From NCBI GenBank assembly GCA_016186995.1, contig JACPKQ010000011.1, forward strand, positions 1 to 10,156: 10,156 bases of DNA. The letters are read 5' to 3'. Below are positions 184-7,361 of the stretch, piece by piece; the first letter of the stretch is position 1; each line of letters opens with the position of its first letter. Position numbers and translations under genes: made by a program. The notes beneath the pieces were generated by a model. It worked only from the letters and a program-made list of their open reading frames with translations. It made no database searches and had not been told where the DNA came from. Source of the DNA: Deltaproteobacteria bacterium (GTDB taxonomy: Bacteria; Bdellovibrionota; JACOXK01).

Positions 184-1173
184 TTATGGATGCTGTAACT
201 TTATTTTAAGCCGCTTCCACCACCATTTCCACTTTGTAATTTTAAAACTGGAATCAATGCACTTATTTTTCTTAAGTGTTTGGATAATCGTAAAGGAAAG
301 CTTGTAATTAATAACATCTCTTTTAAGAGCATCTTCGAGCCAATAAGAGAGTTCTTGGGGAGAGAGTGAAAAATTTTGAATAAGATCATGCGCCACTCTT
401 AAAACACCATGTGATGAGATGAGTTTATTTTGAAAGAGGTGAAGCGCTGCTTGAAATGAATTAAAAGTAGGTACAATTTTAGAATTGTATTTAAGTATGT
501 TTTTAGGATCTGTTTTTTTTTCTAGATGGATATAAATATGCCGAACAGGGTTTGAGAGTGGAATTCTTTCTTTAAGAATAAGAATATCTTTAATATCTCC
601 TTTAAGGACGCCTGAATTTTTTAAGATTTTTTGAAGCGAGTGGTGACCTACTGCATGTCTGCATATTTTGTCATACAGTGAATAGATAAGGGCATCTTTT
701 TCATAGTCATCGCCGAAGAGATATTGCTGAGAGTGTGCCGGGAATAGAAGTTTTAATCTTAAAAGTTCTTTAAGTTTAAAACCTACTTGTTCCTTCACTT
801 TTTTGAATTTCCCAGTATAGATATGTTTAAAGTGATCTTTAAAGATAATACCATCGAAGTAGATTCCATCTAATTTCATTTTTTGTTCTATGACTTTGCG
901 CATCTGTTTGGGACTTGCAGAGATAAAGAAAATAGGATTTTTTTGGCCTTGAGAGGTAGGACCCTGGCTCAGTTCTTTTAAAAGGGTCGCTGCTCCACCA
1001 ATGTTTTCTTTTTCATGGGCCTTTTCAAAGGCTGTTTTAATAAGGCCTTTCAAGGTTTCAAATTGGGTTGCAAGGTATGTTTTATCAATATCCCAAATAA
1101 AAATAGGCCCACTGTAGTGAGGATCTAATATTTTAGATTGAGGAGAGATTTCAATATCTTTCCATGATTTCAT
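184..1173 (-). CDS. APP1-type HAD phosphatase (DUF2183-like; putative phosphatidate phosphatase)
   Basis: The 329-residue protein carries all HAD-superfamily phosphatase motifs in the order seen in APP1/DUF2183 proteins. Motif I is D28-I-D30-K-T32 after a hydrophobic strand (nucleophile and acid/base Asp). Motif II is the Ser of FFISASP (S85). Basic residues follow around 121-128, and motif IV is FGDDYEKD (154-160), matching the GD..EKD pattern of APP1. Yeast App1 converts phosphatidate to diacylglycerol; bacterial members are mostly untested, so the substrate is inferred. No signal peptide or membrane segment is evident, so it is probably cytosolic. The C-terminal half (about 200-329) shows no motif I recognise. 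It is the last gene of the cluster: ATG follows the patatin stop directly (TAAATG) with no good Shine-Dalgarno, implying coupling. An A9 run on the coding strand (near 513-521) is a possible slippage site. No intrinsic terminator follows. Confidence 0.8.
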   Translation of the reverse strand: MKSWKDIEISPQSKILDPHYSGPIFIWDIDKTYLATQFETLKGLIKTAFEKAHEKENIGGAATLLKELSQGPTSQGQKNPIFFISASPKQMRKVIEQKMKLDGIYFDGIIFKDHFKHIYTGKFKKVKEQVGFKLKELLRLKLLFPAHSQQYLFGDDYEKDALIYSLYDKICRHAVGHHSLQKILKNSGVLKGDIKDILILKERIPLSNPVRHIYIHLEKKTDPKNILKYNSKIVPTFNSFQAALHLFQNKLISSHGVLRVAHDLIQNFSLSPQELSYWLEDALKRDVINYKLSFTIIQTLKKNKCIDSSFKITKWKWWWKRLKIKLQHP

Positions 1174-2055
1174 TTATTTATTATTTTCAATTAATTCAGA
1201 AAGTTTTTCAATTATTTCAACTGTCGCATTTTGTCCTGCAATCATCATTTCCCTTTTTTTTGAAAAATCATTGAATTTTATTTTTTGAAGTGCTGGTTGA
1301 ATGATAATATCTGCTTCCTCTAAATCTTTTGTAAGCTCGCGATTTCGAGAAATAAGATGCGATTGAAATATGATATCTTTCTGGTCGTTAAGAGGGGCGA
1401 AATCTAAAGAAGTTCTTGTATCCAGAGCAATAATAATATCGGCATTTTTTTGGCGAGCAACACGGATGCCACTCCCTTCTGTTAAAGAGCCTGTAACAAG
1501 TATTTTTCCTGACATTTTTTGCGGGTTGAAAAAGCCAGGTATGGCAGCACTTGCAAGAATAGCTTGGTTAAGATCACCTTTATCAAAAATAAAAGTTTCT
1601 CCATTACGTAGATTTGTTGTCATACTTAAAAATTCAACATCAAGATCTTCTATTTTTTTTCTTTTTATCTTTTTCTGTATAAATCTTTGAAAGGGCTCTA
1701 AAGAAGCGTGGGCTAAAGAAGTTCCTCCAAAAAAAGAAGTTGAAAAATAATCTGAAAGCTCAAGTTGTGAAGCATCCCATTCTACTGAAAAACTGTTTTG
1801 CGATTCTGCATAGAGAGCTCCTATCAAAGCACCCATATTGTTACCAACAATAAGGTGAAGAGGGATACGCGCTTTTTCTAAAATTCTTAAAACCCCAACT
1901 CCGCTAAAGCCGTGTACCCCAATACCATCCAAAACAAGTGCAATTTTAAGTTTGCCTGAATCAATTTTACCTTCTTCAGAAGGAGAAGTTTTCGTTTCGC
2001 GTGAGGAGCATGCTAGAAGAGTGGTTGCTATCAATAAAAGAACAATCTTTTTCAT
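1174..2055 (-). CDS. Patatin-fold lipoprotein lacking catalytic residues (pseudo-phospholipase)
   Basis: The 293-residue protein starts with a lipoprotein signal (MKKIVLLLIATTLLAC; lipobox LLAC, Cys16), so it is predicted to be membrane-anchored outside the cytoplasm. The rest follows the bacterial patatin-like phospholipase fold: an N-terminal glycine loop then GVGVLRILE (52-60), a strand into GALIGALYAES (75-85), the conserved ASAAIPGFF (168-176), and a late IIIALDTR strand (207-214). The catalytic motifs are altered. The GGGxRG oxyanion loop reads DGIGVHG (43-49), GxSxG reads GNNMG with Asn73 in place of Ser, and DG(G/A) reads TGS with Thr188 in place of Asp. The frame is otherwise intact and full length. 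ATG overlaps the upstream stop as ATGA and no Shine-Dalgarno is visible, so translation probably depends on the sbcC-like gene. Function is unknown; a binding or scaffolding role is inference. Confidence 0.82.
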   Translation of the reverse strand: MKKIVLLLIATTLLACSSRETKTSPSEEGKIDSGKLKIALVLDGIGVHGFSGVGVLRILEKARIPLHLIVGNNMGALIGALYAESQNSFSVEWDASQLELSDYFSTSFFGGTSLAHASLEPFQRFIQKKIKRKKIEDLDVEFLSMTTNLRNGETFIFDKGDLNQAILASAAIPGFFNPQKMSGKILVTGSLTEGSGIRVARQKNADIIIALDTRTSLDFAPLNDQKDIIFQSHLISRNRELTKDLEEADIIIQPALQKIKFNDFSKKREMMIAGQNATVEIIEKLSELIENNK

Positions 2056-3852
2056 AGTTTTATAACGTTAGCATTTTTAAAATAATTTTGCATATTGTGA
2101 TTATGGGAGATGAGTAAAACTTGGTTTATTGTGGCAAAGTTTTCAAGGATGTGCGAGCATTGTTTTTGCCTTGTTTCATCGAAATGAACAAAGGGGTCAT
2201 CCATAAGTAGCGGAAAATGAAGGTTTTTCATCATTTTTTTAATAAGAGCAAGGCGAATTGAAAAATAAAGCTGTTCTTTAGCCCCATAGCTTAAGTGTAC
2301 GCTTTCAAAGTTCTCGAAGTCGGTTTCAAGTTGAGCTTGAAATTGATCGTTAAGTGAGAGTTTATCATATTTTCCTTGTGTTATAAACCTCCTTAGAAAA
2401 ACGAGTGATGTGTGATTCTCTATAGTCTTGAATGGCCTCTTGAAGTGTAAACTTTGCTTCAAAAAGACTCTGTGCCCTTTCTGAAAGGGTTTTTTCTTGA
2501 TCGGAGAGTACTTGAATTTCTTCATAAAGTCGTGAGGGGGGGGTAATGCCTTTTTGTGAAACAGCCAAGTTTTTTTGAGATTCATGAAACTGTTGGGCAG
2601 TTTTTTCAAGATTGACTCTATTTTTTTGAAGTTGATTTGAGTTTTCAAGTGATTTTTTATGCACGTCCCCCGAATCTTTAAAATCTATAAATTGAGGAAG
2701 AGTTTCATAAATTCTTTCCTTTTTTTCTCTTAAAATAAAAAGTTCTTTATTAAAATTTGAAATTTCTTCATCAAGCTTTTTTGAATCTGGAAGTAGTTCT
2801 AACTGGCTTTGTGTTTGAATATAGTGAGTTTTATATCTTCTTTTTTCATTCCATTTATAAAATACAAAACTGCTTAAAGAAATAAAAAGAAGAAGGGCTA
2901 AATACCACCAATTTATAAGCATAAGGCTTATTAAAGGAAGCGCAAAAATATATTTTTGAAGTTTGAGTTGTTTTTGAATAAGTTCACTTCTGACTTTAAG
3001 TTCAGTTATTTTTTTTTGTTGAAGTGATTTTTCTTTGTATTTCTCATTCAGGTTTTTTTCTTTTTCAAGAATATGGTGCAAATCTTGAAGAAAAGTCTGC
3101 TCTTTTTCAATATTGTGAACGGAGGATTTAAGATCTTTTAATTTTTTCTCATAAGTTTTAAGATCTTTTTGTGAGGTTTCAATACATTTATAAATTTTTT
3201 GATTTTCGATAAGCTCAAGTTCAACCTTTTTCTTTTTTTCACGAATTTCTTCTAAAATACGATTGTTTCTTTTGTGTGTGCCTTCTGGATTTTCTCTTGT
3301 AATGGAGAAGTATTTTTCCTCTATTTCTTTAAGAATATCGTCATAATTATGTTCAGAAAGCCCACTTAAAAGAGCCTTCATTTTTAGACTTTCTTCCCCA
3401 GTGTACTTCCGGTTGAGTTCCCCTTGTCCTATGAATGTGATCTTTCTAAAAATAACAGGATCTGAGAAACCAAGGTATTTCCCTATTTTATTAAAATAAA
3501 TATGTCTTTCAGATCTTCGTCCTTGGGGGGATACCTTTGCTTGAAACTTTTTTCCGTTTTCAATAAAAGTAACTTCATCATTTAAAAAATCTCTTTCAAG
3601 AGAGTATACGCCCTTGTCATCGCTGGAGGGGATCTCAAAATCAAGACGTGCACAATAACGGTTTTTATTGCCCCATGGAAGATAAAGTTCTTTTAAATGA
3701 GTAAAACCAAAAAAGATTCCGTAAATACAGTTTAAAAGTGTTGATTTTCCGGCCTCATTAGGGCCTAAAATGAGATTGACCCCTTTAGAAAACTCGATTG
3801 TTTTATTCTTAAACTGACCAAAACTTTCAAGGTGTATTTTTTTAAAGTACAT
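2052..3852 (-). pseudogene. sbcC: SbcC/YhaN-like (Rad50-type) ATPase, frameshifted near 2400
   Basis: Rad50/SbcC-family ATPase partner of the upstream nuclease. Frame one (3852-2365, 495 aa) has Walker A GPNEAGKST (30-38), a Q-loop region (FIGQGELN), coiled coil, and two adjacent hydrophobic stretches at about 299-334. It then runs off-family and stops at 2365. The missing C-terminus lies in the +1 frame to 2052: FITQGKYDKL, signature LSYGAKEQL (2294-2268), Walker B PLLMDD (2213-2196), and H-switch LLISHNHN. Removing one T from the T5 run (plus-strand A5, 2397-2401) joins the frames into 599 aa, with ITRF-LRRFITQGKY at the joint. There is no CxxC zinc hook; the hydrophobic hairpin suggests the YhaN-like branch. 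The ATG at 3852 is chosen for its AAGGA and start of homology; it overlaps sbcD by 11 nt. Whether the shift is a mutation, a sequencing error or recoding cannot be told from here. Confidence 0.8.
2397..2401 (-). other. Probable frameshift site (T5 run) in the sbcC-like gene
   Basis: Plus-strand AAAAA reads TTTTT in the coding strand. Upstream of it the 0 frame gives typical coiled coil. Downstream the +1 frame gives the conserved C-terminal ATPase segment. Deleting one T yields an 1800-nt open frame from 3852 to 2052 and a residue spacing before GKYDKL that looks right for the family. Other indel positions within about 15 nt downstream are also possible. Confidence 0.6.
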
Positions 3853-4969
3853 TGTTGTCCTTCGAAAAGTAGAGAAGCCCTTCTTTAAGGGCAGCTTCAT
3901 AAATTTTTTCTTTTTCTGGCTCTTTTTTCATTTTGTCTTGAAGTTTTCTTACAAAAAGCCCCCTGACTGTGTCTTCTTTTTCAATGAGTTCTATAGGTAA
4001 ACTTTTTAAAACATGAACGTTGTCTTTTAATTTAAGGTAGGCAAAATTTTTCTTGCATGTTTCATGAATTTTATCTGAATAGATTTGAAAATCAGGAGAA
4101 CCTTCAAGTGTGATGAGAGCTAGAATATCTTCACCACCTAGCTTATTAAGGGTTTGAATAAGGTGTTTTTCATCTGAGATGGTTGTAAGGTCTATGTTTT
4201 GAGAAAGCATTTTTTTAGATTGAATGGCGTGTTTGCGAACGATGAGTTTATCATTTTCAAATTCGATGATGTTAACAAATCTTTCATCAATTTCATGAAA
4301 ACGCTTGCCTTCTGAAGAACCACAATAAGAAATAAAACACCCAGTTTCTTCATAAAGTCTGTAGTTGTGGTAGTGGCCTAAGGCCAGGTAATCAAGTTTC
4401 AATTCAAAAAGTTCTTTTATGTCACAAGGAAGATCTTTTGCCATGACGCTCCACTCAGGGTTGTCTTTAATAGAGCAATGGAGAAGGCCTAAATGAAGCC
4501 CTTTTACTTCGACACGCCTCATACTTGGAAGTGGGTCTTTAAAATCAAGTGTATTGTAAGAAACTCCGTATAAATAAAGAGGAATTCCTTTAAGAGTAAG
4601 TTCTTTTGGTTTTGAAAGAATGGGTTCTTTTAAAAAATGGAATTGGTTCCAGAAAGGATCATGGTAAACGCTATCAGAGGCAATAATATCATCATGAGTT
4701 CCTGCAATAAGAGTTACTTCAATATTATTTTGTAAAAGTTTTGTAAAACCTTTTTTACTTTCTTCTACGACAAAAGGTGTAGGGTGGGGCGAGTCAAAAA
4801 GATCTCCAGCGATGAGAACAAGGTCTACTTTTTGTTCAATAGCAGTTAAACAAATTCGGTGAAATGTTTTTATAAAGTCTTGTTCTCTTTGTTCAGCATA
4901 ATCTTCCAAAAAAAGGAATTTAGATCCTAAATGAATATCTGCTGTATGAAGAATTTTAAGTTTTGACAT
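3842..4969 (-). CDS. sbcD: SbcD/YhaO-like DNA repair nuclease (Mre11-type metallophosphoesterase)
   Basis: The 375-residue protein has the Mre11/SbcD calcineurin-like phosphoesterase motifs in order: ADIHLG (10-15, D11 and H13 as metal ligands), GDLFD (55-59), GTHD (90-93), LLHCS around H164, and GHYH (198-201). The family makes a Mn-dependent nuclease that processes DNA ends and hairpins with the Rad50-like ATPase encoded immediately downstream, with which this gene overlaps by 11 nt. GTHD replaces the textbook GNHD; I recall this variant from YhaO-like proteins, so it is probably not inactivating. The C-terminal part (about 240-375) should cap the nuclease and dock the ATPase. The ATG overlaps the end of tlyA by 14 nt with only a weak AAAGAG upstream. 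It could be named yhaO rather than sbcD; the Mre11-type assignment itself is secure. Confidence 0.9.
   Translation of the reverse strand: MSKLKILHTADIHLGSKFLFLEDYAEQREQDFIKTFHRICLTAIEQKVDLVLIAGDLFDSPHPTPFVVEESKKGFTKLLQNNIEVTLIAGTHDDIIASDSVYHDPFWNQFHFLKEPILSKPKELTLKGIPLYLYGVSYNTLDFKDPLPSMRRVEVKGLHLGLLHCSIKDNPEWSVMAKDLPCDIKELFELKLDYLALGHYHNYRLYEETGCFISYCGSSEGKRFHEIDERFVNIIEFENDKLIVRKHAIQSKKMLSQNIDLTTISDEKHLIQTLNKLGGEDILALITLEGSPDFQIYSDKIHETCKKNFAYLKLKDNVHVLKSLPIELIEKEDTVRGLFVRKLQDKMKKEPEKEKIYEAALKEGLLYFSKDNNVL
3858..3862 (-). promoter_or_regulatory. Ribosome binding site that sets the sbcC-like start
   Basis: AAGGA lies 5 nt upstream of the ATG at 3852-3850, inside the last codons of the sbcD-like gene. 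It supports MYFKKIHLESFG as the true N-terminus over the Met 16 codons upstream, whose extra residues do not resemble the family. Confidence 0.65.
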
Positions 4970-5687
4970 GAATTAAAAACTCTTTGTTACCCTGAGCTCC
5001 TAAAACAGGGGATTCTATAACTTCTAACACCTTTAAGTTTAAATCTTTGCAGAGAGTTTTTATTTTTTCAACTGCTTTTAGATGAAGCTTAGAATCCTTG
5101 ATAATCCCCCCTTTGGGAACATCTTCTTTTCCTACCTCAAACTGGGGTTTGATAAGACTGATCATTTCTGTTTTTTCGTTCATAAAGGCAACTGCGTTAG
5201 GAAGAATATTATTGAGCCCAATGAAAGAAACATCAATAACAATAAGATCAATAGGGTCCGAGATTTTATTTTTTTCAAGATAGCGAAAATTTGTTTTTTC
5301 CATAACAACCACTCTTTTATCTTTTCTCAATTTCCAATCCAGTTGGTTTGTGCCTACATCAATAGCATAAACTTTGTGAGCATCGTAATAGAGAAGAACA
5401 TCTGTAAACCCACCTGTAGAAGAACCTATATCCATACATATTTTATCTTTTGGGGAGATTTTAAAATGTTTAAGGGCATGATCCAATTTAAGTCCGCCAC
5501 GACTGACCCATTGATAAGGAGCTACTTTAATGTGAATTTCTGCATCATGAGGAACAAGGGTTCCAGATTTTTCTATTTTTTTGTCGTTTACAAAAACAAC
5601 GCCCGCCATAATATAGCTTTGTGCCTTTGTTCGTGTCTCAACAAGTTTTTTCTGAACAAGAAGTTGATCAATTCGGATTTTTGGCAT
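4956..5687 (-). CDS. tlyA: TlyA-family rRNA 2'-O-methyltransferase (S4 domain plus FtsJ-like)
   Basis: The 243-residue protein is the usual TlyA length and layout. An S4 RNA-binding domain occupies about 1-55 (RIDQLLVQKKLVETR), followed by the linker motif SRGGLKL (62-68). A Rossmann methyltransferase domain begins with the SAM-binding motif DIGSSTGGFTD (86-96). The catalytic K-D-K-E tetrad of 2'-O-methyltransferases appears as K67, D152 (IDVSF), K180 (LIKPQFE) and E236. TlyA proteins methylate cytidines in 16S and/or 23S rRNA, which affects capreomycin susceptibility. Some members were first named haemolysins, and that activity is not implied here. The ATG at 5687 overlaps the ispA end by 20 nt without a clear Shine-Dalgarno, consistent with coupling to ispA. 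A 209-residue reading frame on the opposite strand here is a shadow. Confidence 0.95.
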   Translation of the reverse strand: MPKIRIDQLLVQKKLVETRTKAQSYIMAGVVFVNDKKIEKSGTLVPHDAEIHIKVAPYQWVSRGGLKLDHALKHFKISPKDKICMDIGSSTGGFTDVLLYYDAHKVYAIDVGTNQLDWKLRKDKRVVVMEKTNFRYLEKNKISDPIDLIVIDVSFIGLNNILPNAVAFMNEKTEMISLIKPQFEVGKEDVPKGGIIKDSKLHLKAVEKIKTLCKDLNLKVLEVIESPVLGAQGNKEFLIHVKT

Positions 5688-6540
5688 GCATTCGTTCTAC
5701 AACAAATGTAGCTATGTGTCGAAGGGGTTCTGCCTTTTTATCAAAGATCGAAAGTTGAGATAGTGCTTTATCCTTAAGTTCAATGGCTCTCGCTTTACAC
5801 TCATCGAGACTCATGACTGAAGGGAAAGAAAAGTTTTCTTTCTTACCTTTTTGAGCATCTTGAATGTCATCCACAATTTGGAAGGCAAGGCCTAAATTTT
5901 CTCCATAAGATTTAAATGCTTCATATTCTTTATTGCTTGCTTTAAGCAGTTTTGCAGGGATAGTAAGGGCTGCACGAATGAGCATTCCTGTTTTATGAAT
6001 GTGTAGAAATTGAAGTACGGGGAGTTCGCACTCTTTTTCTTTTCGTTTTCTGACTTCGCACGCCTGCCCACCCACCATTCCACGAGGGCCAGCAGCCCGA
6101 GCCAGTTCATAAATGGCTTCTAAAAGAATAGCTGAATCCCCATTTTGAGTTTCAATATTTGAAAGAAATTCAAAGGCAAGAGTTAAAAGTCCGTCTCCTG
6201 CTAAAATGGCAATGTCTTCTCCAAACTTAATATGATTAGAAGGCATTCCTCTTCTTGTGTCATCATTATCCAAAGCAGGTAAATCATCATGAATAAGAGA
6301 ATAAGTGTGTATGGCTTCAAGGGCACAAGCGATGGGCAAAACGGTATTATTGTCTTTTCCTAATGCATCAGCCGCTGCTAAAGTAAGAATGGATCTGATT
6401 CGTTTTCCACCCGGGAAAAGCGTATATCTCATAGCATCATAAATTTCTGCAAAAGGGCTTTCAGATGGCACTTGAAAATGTTTTTCAAGCATCCCATCAA
6501 TCATTTCTTTTTTGGTTTTAAAGTATTTTTGAAGATCCAT
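5668..6540 (-). CDS. ispA: Polyprenyl (farnesyl/geranylgeranyl-type) diphosphate synthase
   Basis: The protein is 290 residues from the ATG at 6540. It is a bacterial trans-prenyltransferase that condenses IPP with allylic diphosphates, feeding quinone and undecaprenyl carrier synthesis. Visible motifs are PGGKRIR (43-49), the first Asp-rich motif DDLPALD with NDDTRRG (85-98), GGQACE (157-162), K183-T184, and the second Asp-rich motif QIVDDIQD (221-228, DDxxD). The spacing from the start to GGKR matches E. coli IspA. A TTG at 6609 would add 23 residues unlike the family, so the ATG is preferred. GGAG lies only 3 nt from the ATG. A sigma-70-like promoter ends 7 nt upstream, so the leader may be very short or absent. 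It is the first gene of the six-gene cluster, followed by tlyA. Chain length of the product cannot be read from the sequence with confidence. Confidence 0.92.
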   Translation of the reverse strand: MDLQKYFKTKKEMIDGMLEKHFQVPSESPFAEIYDAMRYTLFPGGKRIRSILTLAAADALGKDNNTVLPIACALEAIHTYSLIHDDLPALDNDDTRRGMPSNHIKFGEDIAILAGDGLLTLAFEFLSNIETQNGDSAILLEAIYELARAAGPRGMVGGQACEVRKRKEKECELPVLQFLHIHKTGMLIRAALTIPAKLLKASNKEYEAFKSYGENLGLAFQIVDDIQDAQKGKKENFSFPSVMSLDECKARAIELKDKALSQLSIFDKKAEPLRHIATFVVERMHAKNPN

Positions 6541-6547
6541 GTGCTCC

Positions 6548-6576
6548 ACTATATCGAAGGGTTCATGGCGTGTCAT
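6548..6576 (-). promoter_or_regulatory. Putative sigma-70-type promoter for the ispA cluster
   Basis: On the minus strand, ATGACA (6576-6571; 5 of 6 to TTGACA) is followed by a 17-bp spacer and TATAGT (6553-6548; 5 of 6 to TATAAT). The -10 box ends 7 nt before the ispA ATG, so transcription would start at or next to the start codon. Spacing and matches are good, but this is a pattern match only. A weaker plus-strand candidate for the ZIP gene (TTGAAG at 6529-6534 with TATATC at 6550-6555) overlaps it. Confidence 0.4.
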
Positions 6577-6591
6577 CCTCATCTTGACCAG

Positions 6592-6599
6592 AGGGGGAG
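6592..6599 (+). promoter_or_regulatory. Ribosome binding site of the ZIP transporter
   Basis: AGGGGGAG lies 9 nt upstream of the ATG at 6609 and supports that start over the in-frame ATG at 6621. The whole divergent spacer 6541-6608 holds only this site and the putative promoter elements. Confidence 0.55.
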
Positions 6600-6608
6600 C
6601 ATCGGGCA

Positions 6609-7361
6609 ATGTCAGAATTTATGGATCCTCTTATTCAAAAACTTTTGATTCTTGGTCTTGTTGTTGTTTTAACAAGTTTTGCGGGAAGTTTATTACCCTT
6701 TTTTTTCTATTCTAAAAAGAAAGTTCTTAACACATTTGTAAGTTTTGGTGCAGGTGTTTTGATTGCCGCAGCTTTTGTTCATATGATGCCAGAAGCTTTA
6801 AACCTTATGTTTTACAAGGCACGAGAGGCGAGTATTTGGATTTTAGTAGGTTTTCTTCTTCTTTTTGTACTTGAACGCTTTGTCATGATACACCCTTGTG
6901 AGGAGTTAGAATGTAATTTCCATTATCTTGGATGGACGGCTTTTATAGGACTTTCTATTCATTCTTTAACAGCGGGGGTTGCTCTAGGGGCCTCTATGCT
7001 TGAAGAGAGTTTAGGTTATCTTGTTTTTTTAGCCATTATTGCCCATCAATTTCCTGAGGCCTTTTCGTTATCAAGTCTTTTGGCGATTTCGGGTTTTGAA
7101 AAGAAAAGAGCTCTTTTGTTAGTTTTTCTTTATTCTCTCATGATTCCTATTGGGTCTATTTTAGCGGTGTATTCCCTAAAGATTTTACCTGCAAAAGGGG
7201 TTGGAATAGCTTTAGCTATTTCAGCTGGAACTTTTCTACACATTTCAACATCAGATCTTCTACCCACTATTCATAAAGTAGAGAAAGATCGTTATGTTAA
7301 TTTAAGTGCCTTTCTCTTAGGACTTTTTTCAATGATTTTTCTTCCTGAGCTTTTATCTTAA
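6609..7361 (+). CDS. ZIP-family metal transporter
   Basis: The 250-residue protein is very hydrophobic, with eight predicted membrane segments at about 10-31, 38-60, 73-93, 106-130, 135-158, 166-189, 192-210 and 228-247. The ZIP signature is visible: HMMPEA at the end of TM2 (58-63), HSLTAGVALG in TM4 (118-127) and HQFPEAFSL in TM5 (146-154). ZIP proteins import divalent metals such as zinc, iron or manganese across the inner membrane. Two features are odd. The acidic residue usual in TM4 (Hxxx[D/E]G) is Ala122, and TM5 reads HQxPE rather than HExPE. The loop before TM4 has H95, C97, C102 and H105, a possible metal-binding cluster. The gene stands alone on the plus strand, between a divergent and a convergent neighbour. 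Substrate and transport direction are unknown. Confidence 0.9.
   Translation: MSEFMDPLIQKLLILGLVVVLTSFAGSLLPFFFYSKKKVLNTFVSFGAGVLIAAAFVHMMPEALNLMFYKAREASIWILVGFLLLFVLERFVMIHPCEELECNFHYLGWTAFIGLSIHSLTAGVALGASMLEESLGYLVFLAIIAHQFPEAFSLSSLLAISGFEKKRALLLVFLYSLMIPIGSILAVYSLKILPAKGVGIALAISAGTFLHISTSDLLPTIHKVEKDRYVNLSAFLLGLFSMIFLPELLS

Follow-up and report, generated by a model that had tools for sequence, protein, structure and literature searches.

Genes and features of the locus

The window, by which we mean the whole stretch of 10,156 nucleotides that was analysed, comes from a genome of 1.68 Mb (93% complete) that belongs to a small-genome class of the Bdellovibrionota, the phylum to which the window genome and all orthologues described here are assigned. 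Its minus strand carries an operon in the order ispA, tlyA, sbcD, sbcC, a patatin-like lipoprotein gene that we call the pseudo-patatin, and an APP1-like gene (Table 1). The last junctions are tight: the ATGA at 2055-2052 is shared by two reading frames, and a TAA is followed directly by ATG at 1176-1171. The sbcC-like gene is frameshifted in the window, with about 14 bases missing near the junction of its two frames, and is a single frame in the nearest relative, genome G001; the split is due to faulty assembly or to a gene that is truly broken. For the APP1-like product, a phosphatidate phosphatase homologue, no signal peptide was seen, and its gene shares one operon with the pseudo-phospholipase only in genomes G000 and G001.

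Table 1. Positions of genes and protein features in the window, with the evidence for each.
Feature	Position	Strand	Basis
APP1-like (PF09949) gene with DIDKT HAD motif	184..1173	-	Pfam; ATG immediately after the pseudo-patatin stop; same order in G001
Pseudo-patatin lipoprotein gene, 293 aa	1174..2055	-	ORF, Pfam, AlphaFold2 model (pLDDT 86.2), PlpD match (Z 34.4 over 244 residues)
C-terminal DF..K......G segment, residues 263-274, family-conserved	1234..1269	-	Alignments
TGS, residues 188-190, at the catalytic DG[GA] site	1486..1494	-	Codons; PlpD, 20-row and family alignments
Family-specific E92-W93 motif	1777..1782	-	Family alignment
Nucleophile elbow GNNMG, residues 71-75, Asn73 at the Ser site	1831..1845	-	Codons; PlpD, 20-row and family alignments
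Degraded oxyanion-hole loop DGIGVHG, residues 43-49	1909..1929	-	Motif reading, family alignment
Signal peptide and lipobox LLAC; Cys16 at 2010-2008, Ser at +2	2008..2055	-	Sequence
sbcC-like gene in two frames (2365-3900, 2052-2648)	2052..3900	-	Stop overlaps the pseudo-patatin start (ATGA)
sbcD-like gene, same operon	3842..4969	-	Profile matches, gene order
tlyA, phylum-wide conserved neighbour of the pseudo-patatin	4956..5687	-	Profile match, gene order
ispA (prenyl synthase), conserved neighbour	5668..6609	-	Profile match, gene order

A preliminary description had read the gene as an intact, full-length patatin-fold lipoprotein from which every catalytic motif is gone, and its reading of the letters was exact. 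The frame contains zero internal stops. The N-terminus has a signal peptide and conforms to the bacterial lipobox pattern [LVI][ASTVI][GAS]C, and the Ser at +2 means that the inner-membrane Asp signal is missing. PF01734 matches with 70.2 bits (cut-off 27.7) over profile positions 1-190 of 191 and residues 40-200. Of the residues that characterize this profile, the nucleophile Ser of GxSxG is replaced by Asn73 (codon AAT at 1839-1837), the catalytic Asp of DG[GA] by Thr188 (codon ACA at 1494-1492), and the GGGxRG loop reads DGIGVHG.

These replacements were compared with an alignment of 20 rows, in which the window protein stands beside 19 further patatins, taken from viral contigs and one genome contig. 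At least 90% of the rows keep S73 and D188, and the window protein departs at both positions. The Pseudomonas aeruginosa patatin PlpD aligns free of gaps across both catalytic sites (GTSMG/GNNMG and LVDGG/LVTGS). Because the two residues are near-invariant in other patatins, the motif loss is not an accident of alignment. Two other patatins checked in the window genome keep GSSAG, so patatin chemistry has not been lost there in general. A PHROGs search with the window protein gave no match, and a homology search of genome contigs returned just two matches, both unrelated active patatins.

AlphaFold2 modeling with the 20-row alignment gave a confident prediction (pTM 0.83), as compared with a pLDDT of 33 from the single sequence; since the alignment rows are active patatins, the model may be biased toward their geometry. 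Superposed on solved active patatins, it appears to retain an ordinary patatin fold. The best match is PlpD (rmsd 1.9, 29% identity), followed by CapE, CapV and patatin-17 (Z 24.8).

A tlyA-linked family without the catalytic dyad

Among 59 related genomes that were searched, orthologues with 35-38% identity turned up in members of the window's own family and class. Their elbows read GSGMG, GSGTG, AFQTG and GTETG, all without a nucleophile, and VSG, ISP, VAG and VSS at the Asp site, all without Asp. In the phylum as a whole, which includes the genomes of Bdellovibrio bacteriovorus Tiberius (G048) and strain SSB218315 (G172), a profile search of 324 genomes gave matches in 291; Tiberius carries an orthologue. 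Because the count of 291 includes active RssA-like paralogues, loci were checked individually, and about 100 were read one by one for motif and gene context. This defined a family of tlyA-linked pseudo-patatins, described here for the present analysis, and the window gene shares its clade, its gene order, its loss of Ser and Asp, and its Glu-Trp pair.

No Ser was found at the elbow in any of 113 distinct members from 24 family codes. An alignment of 98 non-redundant members shows Glu at the elbow in 79, Gly in 17, and Gln and Asp in one each, and the Asp site holds Ala (53), Ser (36), Gly (4) or another residue or gap (5), never Asp. The usual elbow is G[LIV]EWG or GTEMG, with Gly, Gln or Asn in the window's class and Gly in family f4. 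The most altered form is [TSA]TGWP in a sub-family from f4 and f24 (L046, L050, L139-L142), where the last Gly has become Pro and the first Gly is also gone. In the oxyanion loop the family consensus is GPGGxx[A/S/T]. The lipobox is present in at least 105 of the 113 members, none of which has Asp at +2. By comparison, all 12 unlinked RssA/PlpD-type patatins that were compared retain both GTSxG and DG[GA].

Intact GxSxG together with DG[GA], which the preliminary description would have taken as a sign of lineage-specific decay, was thus found in no orthologue of the family, class or phylum. Asn73 and Thr188 themselves vary among orthologues, which share instead the lack of Ser and Asp. Counting at least two base changes from Asp to Thr has no bearing here, since Ala or Ser already occupies this site in the orthologues, and Ala to Thr is a single step.

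Other parts of the chain are strongly conserved. W93 is found in 99% of the members and is absent from active patatins, and E92 is found in 85%. The position of D263 in the C-terminal segment is common to active patatins as well, and its DF is also common to many RssA/PlpD-type patatins. The conserved E92 and the Glu present at the elbow of 79 of the 98 members could be taken to mean that the protein is a changed enzyme, using another catalytic set for another lipid reaction, and pseudoenzymes at times prove active. However, Glu gives way to Gly, Gln or Asn at the elbow of the window's own class and to Gly in that of f4, Ala or Ser stands at the Asp site, and beyond Glu73/Glu92 and D263 no acidic or nucleophilic residue is conserved family-wide, which makes a changed enzyme quite improbable. 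We give even less credence to an active patatin with a displaced Ser-Asp dyad, for which the retained overall fold and the GxSxG strings found elsewhere in the chain of 8 of the 113 members might speak. These strings lie at scattered positions, as expected by chance, and never at the elbow, and the alignments reveal no Ser conserved across the family, so that such an arrangement appears extremely unlikely.

Throughout the phylum the orthologues adjoin tlyA, ispA or sbcCD. G001 has the same order as the window, and genomes of f2 and f5 retain sbcDC with the pseudo-patatin. Elsewhere sbcDC is missing and the pseudo-patatin lies directly 3' of tlyA in an xseA-xseB-ispA-tlyA-pseudo-patatin block. 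The gene downstream is then pepP in 60 loci and PBP1A in 16, mostly overlapping, both having been identified from sequence by eye. The PBP1A loci (L051, L052, L056, L143-L150, L152-L156) belong mostly to f8, f25, f26, f28 and f29, and a gene for a TonB/AgmX-like protein is often found near the pseudo-patatin there. Adjacency to PBP1A is confined to one branch and is absent at the window locus. In f13, tlyA directly precedes PBP1A with no pseudo-patatin between them, and in f9 tlyA has a different context, again without the pseudo-patatin. The sole linked-type copy in f9 (L157, genome G067) is near-identical to L103 of G221 (f6) and probably lies on a contaminating contig.

In a maximum-likelihood tree of 65 proteins, from which the motif columns were excluded, all pseudo members lie on one side of a single branch (support 100/99). 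The other side holds the active patatins of RssA/PlpD type, drawn both from the phylum and from viral contigs, with both residues kept. All of 200 bootstrap trees require one change of state, and the split recurred with support 84 in a faster tree built from 110 rows, the window row not among them. Inside the family, the window protein forms a group with the G001, f11 and f5 copies (98/92). Because the elbow of its f5 sister still reads GTETG, Glu is likely the ancestral elbow residue and Asn73 a later change, as far as the alignment can tell. Ser was apparently replaced first by Glu and afterwards by other residues. The pseudoenzyme family is old and vertically inherited.

Selection and signs of decay

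In the pairs of relatives for which it could be measured, NG86 dN/dS of the pseudo-patatin is 0.008-0.16, a range similar to that of TlyA, SbcD or IspA from the same pairs; some dS values are saturated, so that these are order-of-magnitude figures, and they apply to the relatives only. No relative of the window gene exceeds about 40% identity, and the evidence of selection comes from these other copies. The conservation of W93 and E92 and the low dN/dS in relatives point to a protein still in use.

The nearest relative, G001, which belongs to the same family, has an in-frame TAA in the pseudo-patatin where the window has CAG (Gln). At this locus (L037) the pseudo-patatin spans 5738-6595 and the APP1-like gene (4875-5728) is frameshifted, with tlyA, sbcD and sbcC intact. 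The TAA and the frameshift may be errors of the metagenome-assembled genome or true decay in that genome. A recoded TAA codon was considered and rejected, as there was no other sign of recoding. The TAA makes it possible that constraint has been relaxed within the window's family of genomes. The linked gene is also absent from one large family (f9) and from f13, so the pseudo-patatin can be lost and is not indispensable.

The premature TAA and the frameshifted neighbour in the closest copy would fit recent decay, by which an active patatin lost its motifs in the window genome or its family and is becoming a pseudogene; so would D43 and I45 in the window copy, which stand where other members keep Gly. 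Such decay is nevertheless unlikely. No orthologue from the class or the phylum retains the catalytic Ser or Asp, a loss that long predates the window lineage, and in the window the reading frame, the lipobox and E92-W93 are intact. The preliminary description had preferred selection for a non-enzymatic role over recent decay, and this view gains support from the phylum-wide absence of the dyad and from purifying selection in the relatives.

A probable non-catalytic envelope lipoprotein and its relation to known systems

Our preferred reading, to which we assign a probability of about 80%, is that the gene encodes an ancient and conserved pseudo-phospholipase, an envelope lipoprotein predicted from motifs and a fold model, which lost the dyad and the oxyanion loop once and is kept by selection as a non-catalytic binder. 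The loss would date from the early diversification of the Bdellovibrionota or from before it, and purifying selection would afterwards have retained the product as an envelope protein devoid of hydrolase activity. The protein would be secreted and lipid-anchored, probably in the outer membrane according to the +2 rule. In the envelope it probably serves as a binder or a scaffold. Binding would most likely involve the pocket that once took the lipid substrate, or else the surface next to the invariant Glu-Trp helix, and the ligand may be a lipid or a partner protein located at the outer membrane's inner face.

In one branch this partner may be PBP1A, the peptidoglycan synthase whose gene follows immediately downstream, and the translational coupling to PBP1A hints at cell-wall work there. 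Undecaprenyl phosphate is the carrier for peptidoglycan. The isoprenoid gene ispA, together with PBP1A in one branch, makes cell-wall synthesis the best guess of a pathway, albeit a weak guess, with tlyA and sbcDC off this theme. A more specific version, in which the family was recruited early in or before the radiation of the phylum to assist peptidoglycan synthesis as a lipoprotein cofactor in the outer membrane, with PBP1A as its partner, we consider doubtful.

Annotation pipelines would label the window protein a phospholipase, which in Bdellovibrio would imply digestion of prey lipids. The motif evidence says that it should be unable to use standard patatin chemistry. Our analysis extends one odd gene to an ancient, phylum-wide family of pseudo-phospholipase lipoproteins, a clear case of a lipase fold turned into a non-catalytic envelope protein. 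In the literature on Bdellovibrio patatin, RssA and Bd0197-Bd0202 genes and on inactive or pseudo-patatins, we found no description of the family.

Function is directly testable, since B. bacteriovorus Tiberius and, judging by gene order, HD100 are predators amenable to genetics that carry orthologues. In HD100, xseA is bd0197 and xseB is bd0198 (PMC3593177), so that by gene count in Tiberius the pseudo-patatin should be about Bd0201 and bd0199 should be ispA. The use of bd0199 as a growth-phase-only marker (PMC5430801) suggests growth-phase expression of the operon.

Among characterized proteins, the patatin domain of P. aeruginosa PlpD (PDB 5FQU/5FYA) is the best solved relative both by sequence (99.6 bits) and by fold. 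PlpD has a Ser-Asp dyad and phospholipase A1 activity (PMC11116518), and its patatin domain is fused to POTRA and beta-barrel domains, whereas the window protein is a lipoprotein without dyad or barrel. RssA (NF007623) is the sole NCBIfam match, covering residues 35-216 with 94.4 bits, well below the equivalog cut-off of 272 bits. In the phylum, RssA-type paralogues are unlinked from tlyA, with GTS[V/A]G and DG[GA] retained. The CBASS patatins CapV and CapE share the predicted fold (Z 24-27). They are cytoplasmic, nucleotide-activated active lipases and, unlike the window protein, have no lipobox and occur in another gene context.

For the PBP1A-linked branch a further comparison can be drawn with LpoA and LpoB, which to our knowledge do not have a patatin fold. 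LpoA and LpoB are the outer-membrane lipoprotein activators of PBP1A and PBP1B in E. coli (PMC3060616), and the likeness is one of logic only, a lipoprotein paired with an aPBP, suggested in that branch by gene adjacency. If the PBP1A-partner reading is true, predatory bacteria and their kin would possess a lipase-derived counterpart of LpoA/LpoB.
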